Shown here in pieces: positions 387 through 20,298 of a stretch of 20,967 nt of DNA. Origin of the DNA: a virus; IMG/VR virus record IMGVR_UViG_3300043470_000404, positions 1 to 20,967 of that record. The stretch is one strand, 5' to 3'. Numbering within the stretch: the stretch's first letter is position 1; every line of letters starts with the position of its first letter. A model generated the notes under the pieces. That model made no database searches, was not told the origin of the DNA, and saw nothing but the letters and a program-made list of their open reading frames with translations. The position numbers and the translations under genes are program-made.

Positions 387-1235
387 ATGGTTAGTTTAAA
401 AGCACACGGGGGACACTGTTGTGGTGCCCAACATATTCATGGTTTCACACACGGTCGTGCGGCAGACATTTTAGAATTGTATCAGTTCACACAACAGCGT
501 AACCCTTGTTTACATGAAGTTATTTTAAATGAAAGCCAATGTCGCGCTAACCCAGTACTGCTCAATAAATTAGCTCAATTAGGTTATGTTTTGACTACAG
601 GGTTTGTCAACGGCAATCACGACTCTTCTGTGTATGTTTTTCATCGGGCCGGTCGGCGGCTTCCTCTTAACAACCTTAATTTTGATTGGACTGGGCAGAT
701 TGTTTCACCGTCCATTGCCGGTGTTTTACCTCGTTTACCTGTATGTTCGCCTGAAATACGGATGTTTACGGCTGTTCGTGGTGCTTATGTTTCACCCCTA
801 CACATCCGTCCCGGTGATGTATTCACATACCACAACCCACAAAATGATTTACACGGTGCCCAACTCGTTTATTTTGGCCCTAATGTTCCATCGCCGGATG
901 ATAGTAGAGTAACTTTGAGAGTTCGAGGGAATCGTCGTGTTGTTAGACGTGCAATTTCTTGTTTACGTTGGTATGAACAAGCTAATCCTCCGACTGTGGA
1001 CCAGTTGCCTTTAATTCCTTTGCAGCGTCATACCCAAAACGATAATGATATCCCTGCTCCTGTAGAGCCTCCTCAAGTGGTGTATAGCACTTATCACAAC
1101 GTCTTTAGAGACGGTCGAGTTGGTCCCGGCTACCCTAGCCTAGAAGAGGCCCGTAATGGCGCTCCACGGGTCACTGTGAGGCATCGGCAGGATGTTTACA
1201 GCGATGGGACTGTCGAGACTACTGTTTTACCATAG
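387..1235 (+). CDS. Phage protein of unknown function with a His/Cys-rich N-terminus
   Basis: This gene encodes 282 residues from ATG 387, with AAAGG at 373-377 as ribosome binding site. The N-terminus is rich in possible metal ligands (HGGHCC at 8-13, then HIHGF and HG). Residues of about 40-90 read like a domain I recall from many phage and large-virus proteins of unassigned function: EVILNESQ, then LAQLGYVLT and a VFHR end. The middle is basic (RVRGNRRVVRRAISCLRWYEQ), and a Pro-rich linker near 210-235 leads to a short C-terminal segment with two similar phrases (VFRDGRVGPG and VYSDGTVETT). There is no signal peptide or membrane segment. It opens the operon that leads into the amide-ligase cluster, so a link to that pathway is possible but unproven. 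Confidence 0.8.
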   Translation: MVSLKAHGGHCCGAQHIHGFTHGRAADILELYQFTQQRNPCLHEVILNESQCRANPVLLNKLAQLGYVLTTGFVNGNHDSSVYVFHRAGRRLPLNNLNFDWTGQIVSPSIAGVLPRLPVCSPEIRMFTAVRGAYVSPLHIRPGDVFTYHNPQNDLHGAQLVYFGPNVPSPDDSRVTLRVRGNRRVVRRAISCLRWYEQANPPTVDQLPLIPLQRHTQNDNDIPAPVEPPQVVYSTYHNVFRDGRVGPGYPSLEEARNGAPRVTVRHRQDVYSDGTVETTVLP

Positions 1236-1247
1236 GAGACTTGTATT

Positions 1248-2207
1248 ATGCTCATTAAAGACCTTGAGTTTAACCCCACGTTTACTGATACTCAATATGA
1301 TAAGTGTATCGAGTTTTTTGAAGAAGGTCCTGAAATAGTAATCGATTACTGCACTAAATACATTATTGTAGGTGACACAGTATTAATAAATGCTCCTGCC
1401 GCTTGTCACCAGGCTCTCGGCAGCCATACAGTCAAAAACGTAACTCTTGTTGCTACAGAAATAGCCTTGGTTCGTCGTAATCTACAAAATTGTGATGGTG
1501 CGATGGAGTTTTTAGATTGGATGCTTAATCATTCATTCGCCAGTAGGTTTATTGTCAACAAACCAGAGCATCGCACTCTTGAGTGGGTATCTAAAAACGG
1601 CATAATTGTATCCTCCGATGTTATGCAACCATTATTTCAAATGATTATGATTTTCTCTCGCTCTCATTCAGAGCGCAGCAGTACGCAGTTTGCTAAATGG
1701 AAAGAATTGGTCGACGATGGGTTTGACCCACATTTTGCATATCAAGTATGTATGTGTGTAACGGCAGGTGGCGGTTTGCAAACTTTTCCTGATGAAGGTA
1801 CTGTAACGACACGCACAGGCCACACAACAACCTATCTGCTAACTTTAAATAGTATGAAGATGTTTTGTGAAGGAGAGTTAGGTTCTTGTAAATACGAGAC
1901 TCGTGCTTATAAGGTCAACAAGTCTATTTATGGATGCTTTGATTTGTTTCAAGAACAAACGAGAAAAACCTACAAAGATAATTTTGTAAAAGATTTGTTT
2001 AATCAGTGTCCTGATTTCAGATTGCGAATGAAAGCGTTTCGCAACGAGGACACAGCTGTTGAAGCGTATCGTCCACCAAATCCATTCAAACGTCCTTCTA
2101 TGGTTTATGAGAAAAACCCTGACGACGTAACTTATCAAGAGTATTTTAACGTAGTAATCCCTTACATGAAAGAGAAAGGTTTGTTTTATAATGCCCCCAA
2201 CAACTAA
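1248..2207 (+). CDS. Phage protein of unknown function, 319 residues
   Basis: ATG 1248 follows AGGAG at 1234-1238 and lies 12 bases after the previous stop. I do not recognise the family. The protein is soluble and mixed alpha/beta in appearance. It has several cysteines, including a CMC at about residues 169-171 that leads into a Gly-rich turn (TAGGGLQTF). The C-terminal third is rich in charged and aromatic residues. It overlaps the next gene by 17 bases, which suggests translational coupling to the class I amidotransferase-like enzyme. The most one can say from context is that it belongs to the same transcription unit as the amidotransferase and amidoligase genes. Confidence 0.8.
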   Translation: MLIKDLEFNPTFTDTQYDKCIEFFEEGPEIVIDYCTKYIIVGDTVLINAPAACHQALGSHTVKNVTLVATEIALVRRNLQNCDGAMEFLDWMLNHSFASRFIVNKPEHRTLEWVSKNGIIVSSDVMQPLFQMIMIFSRSHSERSSTQFAKWKELVDDGFDPHFAYQVCMCVTAGGGLQTFPDEGTVTTRTGHTTTYLLTLNSMKMFCEGELGSCKYETRAYKVNKSIYGCFDLFQEQTRKTYKDNFVKDLFNQCPDFRLRMKAFRNEDTAVEAYRPPNPFKRPSMVYEKNPDDVTYQEYFNVVIPYMKEKGLFYNAPNN

Positions 2208-2934
2208 AGCACAAGAGCCCCGTAAGTGGGAACGTATTGATTTACCTGACTTTAACGGTCGAAAGGTTTTTGTTACTAACGGCGCTTTTTATTCACAGAT
2301 TATATCTTTGATGGCTTCTTGTGGAATGGAACGAGCCTCCACTGTCAAAGACGCTGACATAGTGGTGTTTTCTGGTGGTGCTGACGTTAATCCAGCTCTT
2401 TATGGACAAGAGTCTTTGCGTGAAACATCTTGGTCTGTTGACCGTGATGACGCAGAAAGAGCTGTATATAATGAAGCAGTGGAGTTGAACAAAATATTGT
2501 TCGGCATTTGTCGTGGTGCACAGTTCATTCATGTTATGAACGGTGGTCAGTTATGGCAGCATGTTGAAGGACATGGAGGCACGAACCATCTTATCACTGA
2601 CGTTGAGGACAACTATCAGGTAGTCTCCAACTCTATTCACCATCAGATGTTGATGGAGAATGAAGACATTGAGATTGTGGCAGTTTGCTCTACTCAAGTA
2701 TCTTATAAGTTTTTGTGTGACAGTATGTCGGAAGAGTTGTTTGATAATGAGACCATGCTTGAGATTGAAGCAGGGTATTATACAGATGACCGCTCGTTCT
2801 TTGTTCAAGGTCATCCAGAAGTAGGTTCTGACGCCTATCGTTCATGGTCTATGAATAAACTTTACGACCACGTTCTTGAGTGGGAGGTGTTCGACGAAGA
2901 AGATTTATACACAGTATCGGAGGAAGTAAACTAA
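2191..2934 (+). CDS. Class I glutamine amidotransferase-like hydrolase (peptidase C26, PuuD-like)
   Basis: This is a 247-residue single-domain protein of the class I GATase fold, closest in motif style to gamma-glutamyl-GABA hydrolase. FSGGADVNPALYG (60-72) is the family's Gly-rich oxyanion and substrate loop. The nucleophile elbow GICRGAQ holds Cys107, and His208 in GHPE with Glu210 completes the triad. NSIHHQ at 147-152 matches the loop before the C-terminal half in PuuD-like proteins. Such enzymes cleave gamma-glutamyl amides or release ammonia from glutamine. It overlaps the upstream gene by 17 bases and its TAA overlaps the next ATG (TAATG), so it is translationally coupled to a class II amidotransferase. 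Having both amidotransferase classes side by side is unusual. It could trim a gamma-glutamyl product made by the ligases downstream (inference). Confidence 0.88.
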   Translation: MPPTTKAQEPRKWERIDLPDFNGRKVFVTNGAFYSQIISLMASCGMERASTVKDADIVVFSGGADVNPALYGQESLRETSWSVDRDDAERAVYNEAVELNKILFGICRGAQFIHVMNGGQLWQHVEGHGGTNHLITDVEDNYQVVSNSIHHQMLMENEDIEIVAVCSTQVSYKFLCDSMSEELFDNETMLEIEAGYYTDDRSFFVQGHPEVGSDAYRSWSMNKLYDHVLEWEVFDEEDLYTVSEEVN

Positions 2935-4370
2935 TGTGTGGTATTGTAGGTATGGCCGGCAAGATAAATCTTCTTGCTAAGAACACATTGTTCAAGGACA
3001 TGATGGACGTCTGTCAAATACGTGGTCGTGACAGTGCTGGTGTAATCAAGGTCCGCAACGACGCAGACCAGTCATATACATGGGTCAAGGCTGTTGGACC
3101 GCCGTCTAATCTGTTTGACTATCGCAAGTATGAGTCAGAGATTGAGCGTGGTGATGCAGTCGCACTCATTGGTCACACTCGTTCACGCACAGTGGGTGAT
3201 ATCAACCTTAAGAACGCCCATCCTTTTGATTATCCTGATGAGGCGATTGTAGGTGTTCATAACGGGACTTTGCGAGAGCATCACACTTTAGACGGCCATG
3301 TTTATGGTAAAGTAGATAGCGATATCTTGTACGGACATCTTGCTAAAAACGGTGCAGAAGAGACTTTTAATGTGGTCAAGGGAGCCTACGCTTGCGTGTG
3401 GTGGGATGGCACTAAAAAGACTCTTAACTTTATCCGCAATAATGAACGACCTTTGTGGTTTACTTGGTCTAAAGACATGGAAATGATGTTTTGGGCTTCT
3501 GAAATCTGGATGTTTGGTGCAATTGAGCGTAAGCTAGATTTATGGAACGGTATTAAGGACGACGGAGAGGGCAAATATATACAGATAAAACCTCATTCGT
3601 GGTGGGCTTTTACTATCAATCCTAAAGCAGTAAAAGACGAAGCCGTCCTTACAATGAAGCCTCAACGGACTATTGAACCTAAGGCCGAGCCTGTCCGTTA
3701 CACTGGTAATTATGGAGTGCAAGGAGGTAAGAGTTGGACTCGTGACCCCCTAGATGGAGACTGGAAGCCGAATACAGGAGGAGAGGTAACTAACCCTTTT
3801 CGGGTAAACAATCTCGACGACGAGGTAGAGGACATACTTCCGTGGACGGCGGAAGGACCGCCACCCCACCTCGACCTAAAGGCTACCATTGGCAATCCGG
3901 CAGAGTCTGGGAATACAAACATTGGCAACGTATCTTTCATGAAGACTTCAGTGAAAGACTCGGCTTCCTCAACGGACACGAGTTCTTCGCCTCGATTTCC
4001 GAAAAAGATTCTTTGCCTTCCTCCCAAGAATTTGCAGAACTCTCCGCCAATCAGCAAAAGAAAGCCCTTAGGCGAATTAATAAAGTCGCCCGGAAACATC
4101 GTATCTCTTTCCGAACAACGGAAACCCCCCCTGCTGCCAGTGTCGGTTAGAGAAGTTAAAAAAGTTGGCATGTTTATCCGAGATAACCTCAAGGGTATTG
4201 AGTATAGTGTTGAGGAGTTTGAACAAAACACTAAAGGTATCTGCTGTCACTGCAAGGAACCAGTAGGAGACCTATCTGAAGTTCATGAATTTATTAATGA
4301 ACGTAATTTTATTTGTACGACTTGCGTAACACCTAATGAAGTAGTAGTTCCCACTTTTGTTTATAAATAA
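2934..4370 (+). CDS. Class II glutamine amidotransferase (Ntn hydrolase) with disordered linker and zinc-ribbon tail
   Basis: The correct start is ATG 2934 (GGAGGA at 2919-2924), because the protein must begin Met-Cys so that Cys2 becomes the N-terminal nucleophile. An in-frame upstream start would bury it. The protein has 478 residues. Residues 2-230 form a GlmS/PurF-type glutaminase domain: MCGIVGMAG, RGRDSAG (31-37), GHTRSRT (80-86), NAHPF (94-98), VHNGTL (108-113) and DSD (128-130). This domain hydrolyses glutamine and channels ammonia. The tail ends in a CxxC pair at 437-440 and another at 461-464, a likely zinc knuckle. No synthase domain of GlmS, AsnB or PurF type follows, so the ammonia acceptor must be another protein, probably a neighbouring ligase. 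The linker at about residues 310-400 is low-complexity in this frame while another frame looks coding (see 3842-4150). Confidence 0.87.
   Translation: MCGIVGMAGKINLLAKNTLFKDMMDVCQIRGRDSAGVIKVRNDADQSYTWVKAVGPPSNLFDYRKYESEIERGDAVALIGHTRSRTVGDINLKNAHPFDYPDEAIVGVHNGTLREHHTLDGHVYGKVDSDILYGHLAKNGAEETFNVVKGAYACVWWDGTKKTLNFIRNNERPLWFTWSKDMEMMFWASEIWMFGAIERKLDLWNGIKDDGEGKYIQIKPHSWWAFTINPKAVKDEAVLTMKPQRTIEPKAEPVRYTGNYGVQGGKSWTRDPLDGDWKPNTGGEVTNPFRVNNLDDEVEDILPWTAEGPPPHLDLKATIGNPAESGNTNIGNVSFMKTSVKDSASSTDTSSSPRFPKKILCLPPKNLQNSPPISKRKPLGELIKSPGNIVSLSEQRKPPLLPVSVREVKKVGMFIRDNLKGIEYSVEEFEQNTKGICCHCKEPVGDLSEVHEFINERNFICTTCVTPNEVVVPTFVYK
3842..4150 (+). other. Alternative-frame protein-like segment inside the class II amidotransferase gene
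   Basis: The frame starting at GTG 3842 is open for 102 codons to TAG 4148-4150 and reads like a real globular sequence rich in Trp, Tyr, Phe and charged residues (GYHWQSGRVWEYKHWQRIF, then LGFLNGHEFF). The host gene's own frame over the same bases is Ser/Pro/Lys-rich and unfolded-looking. There is an AGAGGA at 3827-3832, 9 bases before GTG, so it could be a nested gene. It could instead be part of the amidotransferase. One extra C in the C4 run at 3864-3867 and one fewer in the C7 run at 4125-4131 would join both frames smoothly. I cannot tell which from one sequence. Confidence 0.4.
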
Positions 4371-4382
4371 GGAAGGTATATT

Positions 4383-5285
4383 ATGAGTGCATTTACAATT
4401 GGAGCTGACCCTGAGTTGTTTCTTCGGGAGAATGGTAAAGCAATTAGTGCTTTTGGAATGGTCGAAGGTACTAAAGAAAGTCCCCATAAAACTTCTAACG
4501 GAGCATACCAAGTAGACGGTATGGCACTAGAGTTTAACATTGACCCAGTTAGCACTGTTGGTGCGTTTGAACAGTTCAATATCAACATCATCAAAACTAT
4601 TCAAGAAATGAAGCAACGGGTATCTCAGAACAGTGATGTCAAGAAGTATACGTTCGCCATTCAACCTACTCAAGATTTTGATGAAAAGTACCTTGAGAGT
4701 CAGCCTGCTGCTGCGCTTGAATTGGGTTGTGACCCTGATTTTAACGCATACACTGGTGAAGAGAACCCTCGTCCAGACGGCACTCGCACTTTCCGTACCG
4801 CGGCAGGACACATTCACGTAGGATGGGGTGCCAACATTCCGACTGACAATGAAGAACACCGTGAAATTTGTAACAACTTTGTCAAGATGTTGGACGCTAC
4901 TGTAGGTATGTTCATGACGTTTATTGACCGCGACCCTCGTCGGCGTGAGATGTATGGTAAAGCCGGAGCATGTCGTTACAAACCATACGGAGTAGAGTAT
5001 CGGACACCATCTAACGTGTGGATTATTAATCGTGACCGCCGTGAAGTAATGTATACACTTGTTCAAATAGCCATTGGAAAGATGCGTAATGACATGTCTG
5101 TAATTGATGTCACTGGTTTGAACGAGGAAGAGATACAATTTGTGATAAACACAGGAGACTATAAGACAGCAAAACGTCTAGTGGACCGTCAATTAGGATT
5201 TGTACCAGTGTGGAAGAAGATTTGTGAAGACAAGCGTCTCGTGAATCCAGTAAAAGAAACTGTCGAAATTGAGGATGCGTTCTAA
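4383..5285 (+). CDS. phiEco32-type COOH-NH2 ligase (amidoligase, type 2)
   Basis: This 300-residue protein has the hallmark N-terminus GADPELFL (7-14), followed by the family's conserved acidic beta segment QVDGMALEFN (43-52), AAGHIHVGW (140-148) and the basic loop around GACRYKPYGVEYRTPSNVW (195-213). These Glu/His/Arg motifs match the glutamine-synthetase-fold carboxylate-amine ligases first noted in phage phiEco32. They use ATP to join a carboxylate to an amine through an acyl phosphate. The start at ATG 4383 has GGAAGG at 4371-4376. The stop overlaps the next ATG (TAATG at 5282-5287). It has its own place between the class II amidotransferase and a second, more distant amidoligase. The substrate is unknown; a glutamate- or peptide-containing product is inferred from family behaviour. 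Confidence 0.88.
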   Translation: MSAFTIGADPELFLRENGKAISAFGMVEGTKESPHKTSNGAYQVDGMALEFNIDPVSTVGAFEQFNINIIKTIQEMKQRVSQNSDVKKYTFAIQPTQDFDEKYLESQPAAALELGCDPDFNAYTGEENPRPDGTRTFRTAAGHIHVGWGANIPTDNEEHREICNNFVKMLDATVGMFMTFIDRDPRRREMYGKAGACRYKPYGVEYRTPSNVWIINRDRREVMYTLVQIAIGKMRNDMSVIDVTGLNEEEIQFVINTGDYKTAKRLVDRQLGFVPVWKKICEDKRLVNPVKETVEIEDAF

Positions 5286-5950
5286 TGGCTGACATTTTCT
5301 GGACTGATTCTAATCAAGCGCGTGAGCGATTAGCCGGCACTGTTGTTTTGTATGATGGGCTGCCTGTTTTTATTTCTAACGTAGAGGATGGTGAAAACTT
5401 TAACGATGGTGTTCCCCGCGCCAACATTACTTTTTGTGGAGACACAGAAGGAAATCGTCAACGTAAGCGTCTTGACTCTCCTAAATTTAATAAGTTCCGT
5501 AGTTTACCTGAATTAGGTTGGTTGAATACTACCAAGTACGGGGCTATTTTACTTTCTCGTAAGGCTACTCGCAGTAGATTACACGGCCTTAATTCTAGTA
5601 ACATTAGAGGGCAGTTCTTTCATAATATTGGAGAGTATTCACTTGCGCCCTATGAACGTGTATGGGATGCTTTTTACAACTCATCTTCTTTTGTAGATTT
5701 GTGTAAAGATATATACCCCGCACTAGGAGATGTGCTACTTAATGTGCAAGAAGAAAGCGCCCTTGCTTTCTCACGCAAGTTTGTTGTGTATCGTGACACA
5801 TTAGGGTTACGATGGTTGTATCGTGAGACAGAACGTATTGGTATTTTTACTAACTCCAATTCTCTTAATCTTCTTGAGAAGTTCAAGTTCTATCGTGAAG
5901 AAATAATGAACGACCGCAAATTTACACTTGACAACATACAGGAGTATTGA
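5285..5950 (+). CDS. Conserved amidoligase-cluster protein of unknown function
   Basis: This gene encodes 221 residues, translationally coupled to the amidoligase before it. The N-terminal half has a small beta-rich look: LAGTVVLYDGLPVFISNV near residues 16-33, then a basic RQRKRLDSPKFNKFR and a GWLNT turn near 78, followed by RSRLHGLNSSNIRGQF near 97-112. I recall a phage family with this pattern of phrases lying next to amidoligases, but it has no known activity. The C-terminal half is helical and hydrophilic. No metal-binding cluster, signal peptide or membrane span is present. Its fixed place between two ligases suggests an accessory subunit or substrate-recognition partner. That is inference from position alone. 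Confidence 0.8.
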   Translation: MADIFWTDSNQARERLAGTVVLYDGLPVFISNVEDGENFNDGVPRANITFCGDTEGNRQRKRLDSPKFNKFRSLPELGWLNTTKYGAILLSRKATRSRLHGLNSSNIRGQFFHNIGEYSLAPYERVWDAFYNSSSFVDLCKDIYPALGDVLLNVQEESALAFSRKFVVYRDTLGLRWLYRETERIGIFTNSNSLNLLEKFKFYREEIMNDRKFTLDNIQEY

Positions 5951-5954
5951 TATA

Positions 5955-6947
5955 ATGTCTGATGGAAATACAGAGTTTTTTAAAAATTATCGCAAAGCTT
6001 TTGCCAAGAAGCCTGGTATTCCAGGTCTAGATCTTAATCGTCCTTTGTATACAGGCAATGTTCCTGTAGGAACTATCGGACTTGAACTGGAAATTGAGGG
6101 TCGCAATCTTATTAATAATAGTGGCGATTTATTTGATATTACGGGACCTACTACCGCAGCACGTTGGCTAGCTAAGGCAGACGGGTCATTGCGCAACGGA
6201 GGTATTGAATATGTTTTGTCTGTTCCTTGCGCAGTAGATGAGACAGCCGACCTTGTCAAAGGATTGTTTAAGAAGTTTAAGTCAGCTGGTTCTAGGATTG
6301 AGAATAGTAATCGTTGTTCAACTCATGTTCACATAAACGTAGGCGAACAGCGTATCAATGTCCTAACATCTATTCTTATATTGTGGGCAGTATTTGAGGA
6401 ACAACTTATCAAATGGCACGGTATAAACCGTACTCGTAACCACTTCTGCCTAGGTTTTAAGGACAGTAATACCACACTTAACATGTGGAAAACACTTCTT
6501 CGTCACGGTCAATTACCACGAGAAGAAGGTGGTAAGTATTCTGCTTTGAATATTCTAACTTTGTGGCGCTTTGGTTCGTTCGAGTTTCGCTGTGGTCAAG
6601 AACCTAATGACCCAGAAAAGGTAATTATTTGGGCAAAGTTCTTGCATTACTTTGTTAAGTATGCTATTTCTAATTACACTAATCCGTATCAAATTGCTTA
6701 CGACATTTCTGAGCAAGGAGCTATGTTGATGCTTGAGAATATCTGCAAGCAAGACGAAGAACTAGCTTCCTTTTACAAAGACATTATCGGCGAACAATTT
6801 GAACGACAGTTCAACGAGAGTTGCATGGAGTCTTTCCGAATTGTGCAATCCTTGTGCTTTGAGTTTCCTTGGAATGACTGGAACCCTTTGATTAACAAGC
6901 AGTATGTCCCAAACCCTTTCAGCAAAGCAAAGAGACCGGTCATGTAG
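5955..6947 (+). CDS. Amidoligase (Amidoligase_2-like COOH-NH2 ligase)
   Basis: The start is ATG 5955, chosen because AGGAG at 5940-5944 lies 10 bases upstream; a TTG at 5928 in frame has no good site. The protein has 330 residues. After a 35-residue N-terminal extension containing GIPGLD (21-26) comes the catalytic pattern of the glutamine-synthetase-like amidoligases: GLELEIEG (42-49), KADGSLRNGGIEYVLSVP (74-91), STHVHINVG (122-130), then FEFRCGQEPNDPEKVIIW in the last third. The two Glu-rich strands and the His pair should bind magnesium-ATP. It is only distantly similar to the ligase at 4383, so the phage has two different amide-forming enzymes that probably act on different steps or substrates. 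The GIPGLD motif recurs, even at DNA level, just before the small peptide gene at 6986. Confidence 0.87.
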   Translation: MSDGNTEFFKNYRKAFAKKPGIPGLDLNRPLYTGNVPVGTIGLELEIEGRNLINNSGDLFDITGPTTAARWLAKADGSLRNGGIEYVLSVPCAVDETADLVKGLFKKFKSAGSRIENSNRCSTHVHINVGEQRINVLTSILILWAVFEEQLIKWHGINRTRNHFCLGFKDSNTTLNMWKTLLRHGQLPREEGGKYSALNILTLWRFGSFEFRCGQEPNDPEKVIIWAKFLHYFVKYAISNYTNPYQIAYDISEQGAMLMLENICKQDEELASFYKDIIGEQFERQFNESCMESFRIVQSLCFEFPWNDWNPLINKQYVPNPFSKAKRPVM

Positions 6948-6966
6948 GTACTAGGCGGATACGTTA

Positions 6967-6984
6967 TGGTATTCCAGGTCTAGA
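6967..6984 (+). repeat. 18-base direct repeat of a segment of the preceding amidoligase gene
   Basis: TGGTATTCCAGGTCTAGA occurs exactly at 6014-6031, where it encodes GIPGLD in the amidoligase N-terminal extension, and again here just before the ATG of the small peptide gene. In the peptide's own frame it again reads GIPGLD. The flanks differ, so this is a short duplicated or recombined block, or a conserved coding motif, not an assembly overlap. Confidence 0.85.
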
Positions 6985-6985
6985 C

Positions 6986-7084
6986 ATGTTTGAAGAATTG
7001 GCTCAAAGATTAGAACAACAGGAACGACCACAAATTCGTGAGGAACGACCACAAATTCGTGACATCTGGTTCAACCAGACCTAG
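6986..7084 (+). CDS. 32-residue repeat-containing peptide, possible substrate of the adjacent ligases
   Basis: ATG 6986 opens 32 codons ending at TAG 7082-7084. The peptide begins MFEELAQRLEQQ, an amphipathic acidic helix, and is followed by two exact copies of a seven-residue unit (ERPQIR plus E or D) and a short aromatic tail IWFNQT. The ribosome binding site is weak (AGGT at 6976-6979). The frame also continues upstream as YGIPGLD without an ATG, so the true product may be longer. It ends 12 bases before the ATP-grasp gene and follows an amidoligase. A leader helix, then repeated cores rich in Glu, Gln and Arg, encoded beside an ATP-grasp enzyme, is the layout of ribosomally made modified peptides. 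The role is inference; the gene could also be a decayed remnant of a longer one. Confidence 0.45.
   Translation: MFEELAQRLEQQERPQIREERPQIRDIWFNQT
7020..7061 (+). repeat. Two tandem copies of a 21-base unit
   Basis: The unit AGGAACGACCACAAATTCGTG is present at 7020-7040 and again, identically, at 7041-7061. Its length of exactly seven codons keeps the small peptide's frame and doubles an ERPQIR-type motif. Perfect identity at the DNA level implies a recent duplication or slippage. Confidence 0.95.
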
Positions 7085-7096
7085 GAGAGTTAGGCG

Positions 7097-7843
7097 ATGT
7101 CGATTAAAATTTATCCATACAAGCAGGGTTCTCGCTCTGCCCGTGCCCTTGCCGATGCTCTTGGGGGTCGCGTTTTGCGGCTCCAAGGGTCCACTTACAG
7201 ATACCGTGAGCGCGATACAATTATCAATTGGGGTAATTCTACTGCTTTTAGATTTGATGAACAAATGATTAATTTTATAAATAAAAGTCATTTGTGTAGA
7301 GGTGCTTCAAATAAATTATCAGCATTTACTCAGATGTCTTTTGAAGGTGTACAAATCCCAGAGTTCTGGACTAATAGAGAAGATATTCCTGACGATGCGT
7401 TCCCTATAGTATGTCGTACCATTCTTAATGGTCATTCCGGTGCTGGTATTGTTATTGCTAACAATCGCGGAGAAATTGTAAACGCTCCTTTGTATGTAAA
7501 ATATATGAAGAAGCGTGACGAATACCGTATTCATGCCGGTTTGCATGGTATCATCTCAATACAACGAAAGGCTACACGCAATGGTGAACCACCTCTTGAT
7601 ACTCGCATTCGTAATCATAATAATGGTTATGTTTTTATACGTGGTGACGTTGCTCCTCCAGAACAAGTTATTGAACAAGCTAGATTTGCAGTTAACAGCC
7701 TCGGCCTTGATTTCGGCGCTGTTGATATTATTTACAATCATCATTATCAATTAGCAACCGTTCTTGAAGTGAACACAGCGCCGGGGCTTGAGGGCCAGAC
7801 AGTTATTGACTACGCCAATTATTTTAGGGAACATTACACATGA
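7097..7843 (+). CDS. ATP-grasp ligase (RimK-like fold)
   Basis: This 248-residue protein has the ATP-grasp plan. The pre-ATP-grasp N-terminus carries GSRSARALADALGG (11-24) and an INWGNS turn (43-48). The Gly-rich nucleotide loop is NGHSGAGIVIA (111-121), followed by the lysine strand YVKYMKKRDEYRIH (133-146). FGAVDII (206-212) and LEVNTAPGLEG (223-233) supply the acidic and Asn ligands for magnesium. Enzymes of this kind activate a carboxylate with ATP and join it to an amine or hydroxyl, as in RimK glutamylation or peptide macrocyclisation. AGGAG at 7083-7087 gives a good start at 7097. The last codon overlaps the next gene (ATGA). The neighbours are two amidoligases and a short repeat peptide, which suggests a peptide or amino-acid polymer as substrate. 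Confidence 0.88.
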   Translation: MSIKIYPYKQGSRSARALADALGGRVLRLQGSTYRYRERDTIINWGNSTAFRFDEQMINFINKSHLCRGASNKLSAFTQMSFEGVQIPEFWTNREDIPDDAFPIVCRTILNGHSGAGIVIANNRGEIVNAPLYVKYMKKRDEYRIHAGLHGIISIQRKATRNGEPPLDTRIRNHNNGYVFIRGDVAPPEQVIEQARFAVNSLGLDFGAVDIIYNHHYQLATVLEVNTAPGLEGQTVIDYANYFREHYT

Positions 7844-8052
7844 GATGCCACATTTGCAACGCCGTTTTAAGTGAGAGAGAAATACAAATCAATCGTGACC
7901 ACGGGGACTTTGACCCATGTGGAACATGTCTTGAAGTAATTGATGAAGTATTTAGCAATGAACCAGAAGAAGTGATTGATGAGCAGATTGATTTCGAACT
8001 TTTATTCTCACAATCTCAAGACGTTACGGATCTGGAGGAAGATAGTGCTTGA
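7840..8052 (+). CDS. Small zinc-ribbon protein with acidic tail
   Basis: This gene encodes 70 residues. CHIC at 3-6 and CGTC at 27-30 form two CxxC knuckles, a likely single zinc site. From residue 34 on the protein is strongly acidic and probably helical or unfolded. It is coupled to the ATP-grasp gene through ATGA at 7840-7843. Its stop codon TGA at 8050-8052 lies inside the -35 box of the next promoter, which makes the transcription unit boundary exact. The zinc-knuckle style resembles that at the end of the class II amidotransferase. The function is unknown; it may be a small adaptor or nucleic-acid-binding protein. Confidence 0.75.
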   Translation: MRCHICNAVLSEREIQINRDHGDFDPCGTCLEVIDEVFSNEPEEVIDEQIDFELLFSQSQDVTDLEEDSA

Positions 8053-8077
8053 CAAAACAGCTGATGCAGGATATAAT
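8049..8077 (+). promoter_or_regulatory. Perfect sigma70 promoter
   Basis: TTGACA at 8049-8054 and TATAAT at 8072-8077 are separated by exactly 17 bases, which is the full bacterial housekeeping consensus. Transcription should begin near 8084. It overlaps the end of the zinc-ribbon gene and lies within what would be the upstream part of the nucleotidyltransferase frame, so it drives the nucleotidyltransferase and the replication genes after it. It shows the phage relies on host RNA polymerase here. Confidence 0.88.
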
Positions 8078-8131
8078 ACCTATATAGGGTACAGCGAGGT
8101 TAATTACATTCATACTACTAAGCTTAGAAAT

Positions 8132-8788
8132 ATGTCAAATAACACAATGATTGACCTTATGTCTTTGTCTAAAAGCCTTGATAAACTTACAGACAAATAT
8201 AATACTAGACCTGTCATTGCAGGAGGGGCTGTTCGAGACCTGCTGATGGGCTACTGCCCAAAAGACTTTGATGTATTTGTTGACATATCAGCTGTTGAAG
8301 ATGAGGATGAACAACAAGACTTTATAGACTCTTTCTTGTACGATTTTTGCGTGGACATGAGTGGTAATTATTTTTATAATCTAAATAATATAGGTTGGCC
8401 TTATTCGATTTTACCTACTGATACCAGTAAGACCCCTTTAGAATACATAAACATGGAAAACACGTTTCAAGTATATGAATGGGGAATGTATCAGTTTATT
8501 TTTATGAAGGACCCTATGATACAGGAGAACCCTGGTCAATGGATATTAGACAGGTTTGACTACTCTCTTGTCAAATGTTTTATTGACCCTTCTACACACA
8601 AAGTATACGCATCCGATGAGTTTATGCGAGACAGAGAAGCTAAACATATTGAAGTTAAAGACATGACGACATACGCACGAGTAATGAAATGGACAAAACG
8701 TAATGGTATAGACATTACTCCTAACCTATTATATGTAGAGAAAGATAAGAATGAGAGCTACGAAGCAAAGCCATCTGCCATGCCCTAA
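8132..8788 (+). CDS. Nucleotidyltransferase, pol-beta superfamily, CCA-adding-enzyme head domain
   Basis: The frame opens at 7976, but a perfect promoter with start site near 8084 lies inside it, so the start should be ATG 8132 (218 residues) or ATG 8147. The ribosome binding site before either is poor. VIAGGAVRDLLMGYCPKDFDVFV (28-50) has the GG...RD substrate loop and the DxD metal pair (Asp45, Asp47) of tRNA nucleotidyltransferases and poly(A) polymerases. The later phrase RFDYSLVKCF matches the strand after the catalytic core. It is about half the length of a full CCA-adding enzyme and lacks the neck, body and tail helices. It may modify tRNA ends or another RNA or protein. The gene overlaps the primase-helicase by 38 bases. 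Confidence 0.78.
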   Translation: MSNNTMIDLMSLSKSLDKLTDKYNTRPVIAGGAVRDLLMGYCPKDFDVFVDISAVEDEDEQQDFIDSFLYDFCVDMSGNYFYNLNNIGWPYSILPTDTSKTPLEYINMENTFQVYEWGMYQFIFMKDPMIQENPGQWILDRFDYSLVKCFIDPSTHKVYASDEFMRDREAKHIEVKDMTTYARVMKWTKRNGIDITPNLLYVEKDKNESYEAKPSAMP

Positions 8789-18369: not shown

Positions 18370-20298
18370 ATGACAATGACGATTAGCAATAGTCCTTTTA
18401 AGAACCAGTTCCAAGAATTTATTTTTAAGAGCCGATATGCAAAGTGGAAACAAGATGAAAAACGACGAGAAGATTGGAACGAGACTGTTACCCGTCTTGT
18501 TGAGTACTACAAGTCACAAATCTCTAGCACAGTCGATGTTGATAAACATGCAGAAACATTTAGAGAAATTTACGACGCAGTCTATGGACTAGAAGTGATG
18601 CCCTCCATGAGGGCGCTAATGACAGCAGGTCCTGCGTTGGACCGTTGCCATGTGCCAGCTTACAACTGTGCTTACCTACCAGTAGACAGTCCCCGGTCTT
18701 TTGACGAGGCAATGTACATACTGATGTGCGGCACAGGAGTAGGTTTTAGTGTAGAGAATAAATATGTCCAGCAGTTGCCGAAGATTTCTGAGAAGTTTGA
18801 AAAGACTGATACTGTTGTCAAGGTGGCGGACTCTAAAGAAGGTTGGTCAAAGGCTTTCCGAGAAATTATCAGCCTTCTTATTGCAGGCCAGATTCCTTTA
18901 TGGGATGTCTCTAATGTCCGCCCTGCTGGTGCCCGTCTCAAAACCTTCGGAGGTAGGGCAAGCGGGCCTGCTCCTTTGGTTGATTTATTTAAGTTCTCTG
19001 TCGATATGTTCACGAACGCAGCCGGTCGCCGTCTTACTTCATTGGAGTGCCACGACCTTATGTGTAAGGTGGCTGACATCGTCGTTGTAGGTGGAGTACG
19101 TCGCTCCGCTATGATTAGTCTGTTCGATGTGACAGACGACCGTATGTCTACATCCAAGACAGGAGCTTGGTGGGAAGCAGCAGGTATTCGTCGACTAGCT
19201 AACAACTCTGCTGTGTACGAACATCGGAAACCGGACGTTGGTTTCTTTATGAAGAAGTGGAAAGAACTGTATGACTCAAAATCAGGAGAACCTGGACTAT
19301 TCAGTCGATATGCTTGCCAAAACATTGCTGCACGAAATGGACGCCGTGATCCGTCACATGATTTCGGCACAAATCCTTGTTCAGAAATTATCTTACGACC
19401 GTTCCAATTCTGTAACCTCACTGAAATTGTTGTCAGAAGTACAGATACAATTGAGAGCCTTGAACGAAAAGCTACGGTCGCTGCAATCCTTGGAACGATT
19501 CAATCGACATTCACAGATTTCAAATACTTAAGGAAAATATGGCATGATACGTGCAATGAAGAACGCCTTCTTGGAGTCTCTCTTACCGGAATCCAAGATA
19601 ATCCTCGACTACTCGGAGACAGCGGAGTTCTCGTACGTCTACGAGATATCGTGGTTGAGACAAATAAGCTTTGGGCAGAACACCTTGGAATTAATCAGTC
19701 TACCGCTACTACTTGTGTCAAGCCTTCTGGGACAGTTAGTCAACTTGTTGATTCTGCCAGCGGTCTACATACTCGCCATAGTCCTTACTACATACGTACT
19801 GTTAGAGCGGACAATAAAGACCCTCTTACAGTGTTTCTCAAAGACGAAGGAGTCTACTGGGAAGAAGATGTAATGGCACCAGCCAATACGTCAGTATTCT
19901 TTTTTCCTGTTAAATCTCCAGAAGGAGCGAGGACACGACACGATGAGACTGCGATTAGTGCGTTGGAAGGATGGAAACGTCTCCAAGACAATTGGTGTGA
20001 ACACAAACCTTCTGCAACCGTTAATGTTCGTGAAAACGAATGGATGGATGTTGGAGCTTGGGTCTATAACAATTTTGATACACTCTCCGGCGTCGCGTTT
20101 CTCCCGTACGATGGAGGAACATACAAGCAAGCTCCGTACACAGAAGTAACGGAAGAAGAATACAACCAGTGGATACAAGAAAAGCCCACCCCAGTAATTA
20201 ACTGGAGCAGGCTTTCGGAATACGAACAAGAGGACAACACCACAGGTTCCCAAGAGCTAGCTTGCTCTGGTGGAGTTTGTGAGGTAGTCGCTATTTAA
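18370..20298 (+). CDS. nrdJ: Adenosylcobalamin-dependent (class II, monomeric) ribonucleotide reductase
   Basis: The 642 residues follow the Lactobacillus leichmannii ribonucleoside-triphosphate reductase plan. MPSMRALMTAGPAL (77-90) is the N-terminal hallmark. YNCAYLPVD holds Cys100 of the active-site redox pair, GTGVGFSVE follows, and NPCSEI (335-340) carries the thiyl-radical Cys337 and Glu339. The partner Cys348 is in FQFCNLTE. The C-terminal swinging-arm pair is CSGGVC (Cys632, Cys637), the CxxxxC seen in class II enzymes. It is about 100 residues shorter than the Lactobacillus enzyme. It reduces ribonucleoside triphosphates with host adenosylcobalamin and needs no oxygen or second subunit, so the phage depends on a host that makes or imports B12. 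With the MazZ-like and HD genes it forms a dNTP module. Confidence 0.93.
   Translation: MTMTISNSPFKNQFQEFIFKSRYAKWKQDEKRREDWNETVTRLVEYYKSQISSTVDVDKHAETFREIYDAVYGLEVMPSMRALMTAGPALDRCHVPAYNCAYLPVDSPRSFDEAMYILMCGTGVGFSVENKYVQQLPKISEKFEKTDTVVKVADSKEGWSKAFREIISLLIAGQIPLWDVSNVRPAGARLKTFGGRASGPAPLVDLFKFSVDMFTNAAGRRLTSLECHDLMCKVADIVVVGGVRRSAMISLFDVTDDRMSTSKTGAWWEAAGIRRLANNSAVYEHRKPDVGFFMKKWKELYDSKSGEPGLFSRYACQNIAARNGRRDPSHDFGTNPCSEIILRPFQFCNLTEIVVRSTDTIESLERKATVAAILGTIQSTFTDFKYLRKIWHDTCNEERLLGVSLTGIQDNPRLLGDSGVLVRLRDIVVETNKLWAEHLGINQSTATTCVKPSGTVSQLVDSASGLHTRHSPYYIRTVRADNKDPLTVFLKDEGVYWEEDVMAPANTSVFFFPVKSPEGARTRHDETAISALEGWKRLQDNWCEHKPSATVNVRENEWMDVGAWVYNNFDTLSGVAFLPYDGGTYKQAPYTEVTEEEYNQWIQEKPTPVINWSRLSEYEQEDNTTGSQELACSGGVCEVVAI

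Follow-up and report, generated by a model that had tools for sequence, protein, structure and literature searches.

The viral record IMGVR_UViG_3300043470_000404 of IMG/VR was analyzed over its positions 1 to 20,967, and this whole stretch of 20,967 nucleotides is referred to below as the window. Its plus strand contains a known phage amidoligase module, of which the arrangement of enzymes is itself not new. Within this module, the gene of the class II glutamine amidotransferase (GATase) is very probably recoded by programmed -1 frameshifting, which would give rise to two GATase isoforms. Comparative evidence from related sequences strongly supports the recoding. The gene and the elements involved are the following.

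2934-4370, + strand: class II (N-terminal nucleophile, Ntn, Cys2) GATase; the frame 0 product of 478 aa consists of a GATase domain, a linker and a C-terminal zinc ribbon (GATase_6, E=1.1e-15)
3776-3781, + strand: internal Shine-Dalgarno (SD)-like AGGAGG, a candidate frameshift stimulator 12 nt 5′ of the slip site
3794-3800, + strand: slippery heptamer C_CCU_UUU, in phase in all relatives that have the -1 domain
3794-4150 (codons to 4147), + strand: -1 frame open reading frame (ORF) of 118 codons plus stop, lying over the Ser/Pro-rich linker (all-frame reading; conservation)
3890-4096, + strand: predicted helical domain of the -1 ORF (AlphaFold2)
4242-4325, + strand: frame 0 zinc ribbon with the conserved cysteines C437, C440, C461 and C464

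Overlapping reading frames in the class II GATase gene

When all frames of the class II GATase gene were read, the 118-codon -1 ORF emerged in the window, with an out-of-frame counterpart in three relatives (the relatives are numbered L001 and so on). A profile made from these four sequences retrieved two more out-of-frame copies, in L034 (E=2.4e-15) and L049 (E=3.6e-13). Their observed scores are 56.5 and 49.1 bits, respectively, against 29 and 20 bits for the best of about 2700 synonymous recodings of frame 0. Per gene, only a fraction of 0 to 0.004 of the synonymous recodings leaves the -1 frame equally open. A long -1 ORF with the slip site is found in the window and 13 diverged relatives (14 sequences), all with frame 0 intact. 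An independent test, for which viral contigs were searched with the neighboring class I GATase and not with the -1 ORF, led to the same architecture: all eight new loci whose class II GATase shares 43% identity or more with that of the window have C_CCT_TTY followed by a -1 ORF of 104-128 codons (profile E 2e-17 to 1e-3). C_CCT_TTT is also found in six of 11 more distant genes (L156-L160, L162), followed there by short -1 tails (14-28 codons), and the tail common to L158, L159 and L160 is conserved.

The model of the -1 domain, computed by AlphaFold2 from six sequences only, mostly has a pLDDT (predicted local distance difference test score) of 87-93 over residues 41-100. Searches for a homologue in Pfam, PHROGs, the GenBank phages (tblastn) and BFVD gave chance-level matches only, and no in-frame copy of the domain was found in the GATases of other phages. 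Judged from sequence, the class II GATases of cultured relatives have a beta-rich middle domain, whereas the protein of the window appears to have lost this domain and has in its place a linker that is overprinted by the -1 frame domain.

Codon position 2 of frame 0 is the wobble position of the -1 frame. Between the window and L002, 56, 36 and 168 substitutions are found at codon positions 1, 2 and 3, respectively, outside the overlap, compared to 20, 36 and 33 inside the overlap, a shift from position 3 to position 2 (p=7.6e-8). The same shift is seen in the independent pairs L034-L152 (p=9e-6), L148-L149 (p=2.4e-5) and L150-L151 (p=0.006), and also in the 28-codon tail of L158-L159 (p=7e-5). 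Beyond the overlap, substitutions return to position 3 and the cysteines of the zinc ribbon are kept, indicating that both frames are used. As the data are single metagenome contigs, one might suspect the overlapping frame to be an assembly or sequencing artefact, or a product of chance. The recurrence of the architecture in 14 diverged contigs and of the selection signals in independent pairs excludes this in practice.

Slip site and candidate stimulators

The -1 ORF is entered in all these genes at an in-phase C_CCT_TTT or C_CCT_TTC. The codon before Pro-Phe always ends in C and the proline is always encoded by CCT, though the preceding residue can be N, H, S, D or A, and CCCTTT is the sole invariant block in 11 aligned diverged sequences. 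In the window, a TAA in the -1 frame lies directly 5′ of the heptamer and the -1 frame is thus open from the slip site only. Heptamers of the type X_XX.U_UU.Y, with X being A, C or U, belong to the -1 motifs with the highest efficiency in E. coli (PMC4066793). Upstream of the slip site, GGAGG or AGGAG is present in 11 of the 14 long-ORF sequences and GGGGG in L148 and L149.

Overprinted genes are known in phages, and the -1 ORF could in principle be such an independent gene, translated from its own internal start, with the heptamer being incidental. The AGGAGG could serve an internal start, and -1 codon 17 is GTG in the window and TTG in L002. We consider this explanation improbable. No ATG, GTG or TTG is found ahead of the conserved -1 core in L003, L004, L034 and L049, and no start codon lies at the usual distance from the SD-like element. 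What this element keeps constant is its distance to C_CCU_UUY, a heptamer that varies neither in sequence nor in phase.

We should note that several observations weigh against programmed frameshifting. The SD-like element is missing from L155 and only weak in L003. Neither six single folds (z -0.98 to +0.98) nor one alignment fold, which yielded no consensus pairs, pointed to a stable or conserved RNA structure 3′ of the slip site, where bacterial frameshift sites frequently but not invariably have a stem-loop or pseudoknot; the SD-like element is therefore the sole visible stimulator. Internal initiation at codon 17 is possible in the window and L002. Finally, the probability that frame 0 is open by chance, given the -1 peptide, is only moderately low (0.07-0.5 per gene). 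Programmed -1 frameshifting remains the reading that we prefer.

Composition and distribution of the amidoligase module

The other genes of the module, together with the gene just 5′ of it, are organized as follows.

1248-2207, + strand: P2, a protein of unknown function (phrog_27195) 5′ of the class I GATase, with a homologue in several relatives
2191-2934, + strand: class I GATase, a peptidase C26-like hydrolase with the triad C107-H208-E210 (Pfam E=6.5e-20)
4383-5285, + strand: phiEco32-type COOH-NH2 ligase (E=4.6e-10)
5285-5950, + strand: P6 (phrog_11055), a conserved sixth member of the module with no known homologue (PHROGs)
5955-6947, + strand: Amidoligase_2-like enzyme, with ATG 5955 as best start and its stop at 6947 (E=4.4e-8)
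7097-7843, + strand: RimK-like ATP-grasp ligase (phrog_2599, E=6e-68)

The first-pass annotation of this DNA described five enzymes with intact catalytic motifs as a coupled amide-bond system. Pfam and PHROGs matches and residue conservation agree with this for the + strand between 2191 and 7843, where the genes of the cluster abut or overlap one another as claimed. The wider unit it proposed (387-8788) holds for these + strand enzymes, but no evidence of belonging was found for the genes at 387-1235 and ~8050-8788 (nucleotidyltransferase). The first-pass annotation overlooked P6, a conserved gene (5285-5950), and also the out-of-frame domain that lies within the gene of the class II GATase.

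Catalytic-residue columns were compared across 38-45 relatives. C107, H208 and E210 of the class I GATase are kept in 38/38 relatives, and C2, R83, N110, G111 and D128 of the class II GATase, comprising the nucleophile and glutamine-site residues, in 45/45. Essentially invariant are also H143, H145, R187, R198 and E205 of the COOH-NH2 ligase, E53, E55, E94, H133 and H135 of the Amidoligase_2 enzyme, and K73, E142, D210, E224 and N226 of the ATP-grasp enzyme (E224 in 44/44 relatives, N226 in 43/44). The nearest named relatives of the class I GATase are gamma-glutamyl hydrolases such as PuuD and gamma-glutamyl-CDP-amidate hydrolase, which have the class I GATase fold and catalytic triad in common with it, but the protein encoded at 2191-2934 scores far under the curated cut-offs for both. 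The P6 profile has matches in 33 viral or genome contigs with the cluster, and P6 is located between the COOH-NH2 ligase and the amidoligase. Its structure is confidently predicted as a mostly beta-strand fold; comparison with the PDB gave just weak matches to small barrels (eIF5A/EF-P) with a template modeling (TM) score of ~0.2, which we do not interpret.

An ORF of 70 aa with CxxC pairs (7840-8052) directly follows the ATP-grasp gene and has no match to a Pfam or PHROGs family. A tRNA-like 3′ half (GGGTTTGACTCCC...CCA) lies 5′ of the cluster at 270-345, a stretch for which neither ARAGORN nor Rfam gave a call. Elsewhere, the phage encodes a B12-dependent class II ribonucleotide reductase (18370-20298 of the window), a family A polymerase, a T7-type endonuclease I and a SleB-like cell wall hydrolase.

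In a survey of 50,697 GenBank phages, the class II GATase, COOH-NH2 ligase, Amidoligase_2 and ATP-grasp genes were each detected in 307-319 phages with a nearly identical organism make-up, and the class I GATase in 57. The survey of co-occurrence that the first-pass annotation had named as decisive thus had a positive outcome, and the genes usually have a fixed order: class I GATase, class II GATase, COOH-NH2 ligase, P6, Amidoligase_2, ATP-grasp and primase. Zobellviridae (CVT22, CW02, GP100, TC6, Klyazma and others) keep this order almost without change; in LUZ24-like and phiEco32-like phages it is shuffled to some extent. No phage near-identical to the window was found among the GenBank phages. 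The resemblance to clusters of phiEco32-like phages, likewise pointed out earlier, is confirmed: phiEco32-, LUZ24- and Zobellviridae-type phages (CVT22, CW02, TC6, GP100, tf, UFV-P2) encode the same families in mostly the same order as the window, and the cluster has already been remarked on in the literature (PMC3890496; PMC6209634).

In the literature on the cluster, no defined amide product or target was found. The ATP-grasp and amidoligase families include peptidoglycan-type ligases, and the enzymes might prevent superinfection by decorating the wall of the host cell, a role that would be compatible with the frameshift. Such a decoration is stated for phiEco32 in PMC10580990, and both this paper and PMC4431377 attribute the idea to Iyer et al. 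(2009). For the module of the window we regard it as unlikely. Nothing in the window links the cluster to the wall, the block adjoins DNA replication genes in nearly all relatives, and a class I enzyme nearest to gamma-glutamyl hydrolases is just as consistent with small-molecule conjugates.

The 3′ end of the amidoligase gene

The amidoligase gene itself contains a similar heptamer close to its 3′ end.

6914-7084, + strand: C_CCU_UUC heptamer (6914-6920, at the NPF motif) and 56-codon -1 tail of the amidoligase, a lead only; this tail contains the 32-codon ORF at 6986-7084

A second frameshift is possible at this site, judging from the sequences compared. C_CCU_UUC and a -1 tail are present in the window, L001 and L002. 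In relatives with C_CCC, the amidoligase continues in frame as a long tail, and such in-frame tails replace the -1 tail in L003, L004, L034 and L049.

The 32-codon ORF, which contains an in-frame tandem duplication of 21 bp, was put forward in the first-pass annotation as a dedicated peptide substrate. RimK-like ATP-grasp enzymes modify peptides, and the position of the ORF between the amidoligase and ATP-grasp genes, together with the duplication, would suit a substrate that is elongated or tagged by the ligases in the manner of a ribosomally synthesized and post-translationally modified peptide (RiPP). The ORF is, however, not conserved in the closest relatives. In L001, the closest relative with neighboring proteins that are 96-100% identical, the C-terminal half differs and the frame changes, so that the ORF runs into the start of the ATP-grasp gene, and L002 has no equivalent ATG. 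With the four relatives that have in-frame amidoligase tails instead, and with an ORF that begins within the open -1 tail starting at C_CCU_UUC, a dedicated substrate is very improbable. The 32-codon ORF is better read as the end of the putative -1 frame tail of the amidoligase than as a separate conserved gene. A conserved RiPP-like precursor gene beside the ligases was not found in L001, L002, L003, L004, L034 and L049.

An exact 17-bp repeat, GGTATTCCAGGTCTAGA, occurs at 6015-6031 in the 5′ region of the amidoligase gene and at 6968-6984, just 5′ of the 32-codon ORF. Both copies read GIPGLD, the second one in the -1 tail. The number of such repeats expected by chance is zero. L001 does not have the second copy.

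Heptamers in the class II GATase genes of cultured phages

Outside the lineage of the window, 32 class II GATase genes were inspected for efficient -1 heptamers. These occur in codons 200-300 of 17 genes, compared to 6.4 expected from synonymous recoding (0/300 recodings as high). Codons 0-200 show a depletion of these heptamers, and three control genes show no enrichment. A set of 14 further cultured phages gave a count of 8 versus 3.1 expected. Just past the GATase domain, GGGAAAG, CCCAAAG and CCCTTTT are found at codon 265 of L132, codon 250 of L135, codon 222 of L133 and codon 245 of L130 (TC6, tf, Klyazma, CW02). The heptamer of LUZ24-like phages is C_CCA_AAG, and their basic -1 tails contain LSKKQRRKLRRK, which resembles LSAGKQRKHLRK of the -1 domain.

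The shift in codon position was non-significant in most pairs when the short -1 tails of cultured phages were compared, and a family-wide claim therefore rests on the enrichment of heptamers. This enrichment is a lead only, since the first genes had already been seen when the list of heptamers and the range of codons were chosen. We are evenly divided on whether frameshifting is general in phage class II GATases, including those of LUZ24-like Pseudomonas phages (C_CCA_AAG, LSKKQRRKLRRK), Klebsiella Zobellviridae and Pseudomonas aeruginosa PA11-like phages (G_GGA_AAG). If so, the module would need two isoforms in a set ratio, the lineage of the window would have grown its -1 tail into a domain, and the amidoligase may share the heptamer.

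Proposed mechanism and comparison with known systems

In the proposed mechanism, most ribosomes would stay in frame 0 and produce the protein of 478 aa with GATase domain, linker and zinc ribbon. A minority would slip back one base at C_CCU_UUY, aided by the internal SD-like element ~12 nt upstream, and produce a transframe protein of 405 aa composed of the GATase domain, a basic linker and the small helical domain. One mRNA would thus encode, in a fixed ratio, two GATases with a common glutamine-hydrolysing or gamma-glutamyl-cleaving domain and different tails. Through these tails, the domain that releases ammonia or hydrolyses gamma-glutamyl bonds may be docked onto different partners, and the module, with its three ATP-dependent ligases, would then build or trim an amide-linked conjugate. 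The conserved slip site and -1 domain, the selection on the -1 frame and the conserved zinc ribbon of frame 0 are observed here, and we infer from there the slippage, its efficiency, the docking role of the tails and the making or trimming of a conjugate. If the two forms bind different partners, as is presumably the case, they offer a handle on the role of a cluster that is present in hundreds of phages. The -1 domain escapes annotation that is based on frame 0 alone.

No report of frameshifting in a phage amidotransferase was found in the literature. A close comparison is E. coli dnaX, which likewise has an X_XXY_YYZ heptamer, an SD-like element 10-15 nt upstream and two C-terminal forms (PMC5009743; PMC4066793). 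In contrast to dnaX, no downstream stem-loop was found here, the gene encodes a glutamine amidotransferase, and the shift would lead not to rapid termination but into a long conserved domain that overlaps frame 0. Most known cases of frameshifting in phages concern genes of tail chaperones and capsids, and a conserved frameshift that adds a whole overprinted domain to a metabolic enzyme would be unusual. The tail assembly chaperones gpG/gpGT and the capsid proteins of T7 (10A/10B) and of phage Privateer are similar in that two products are made in a fixed ratio by a -1 slip (PMC5009743; PMC7881722). Those are structural or assembly genes, however, whereas the recoded gene of the window encodes a metabolic enzyme beside replication genes.

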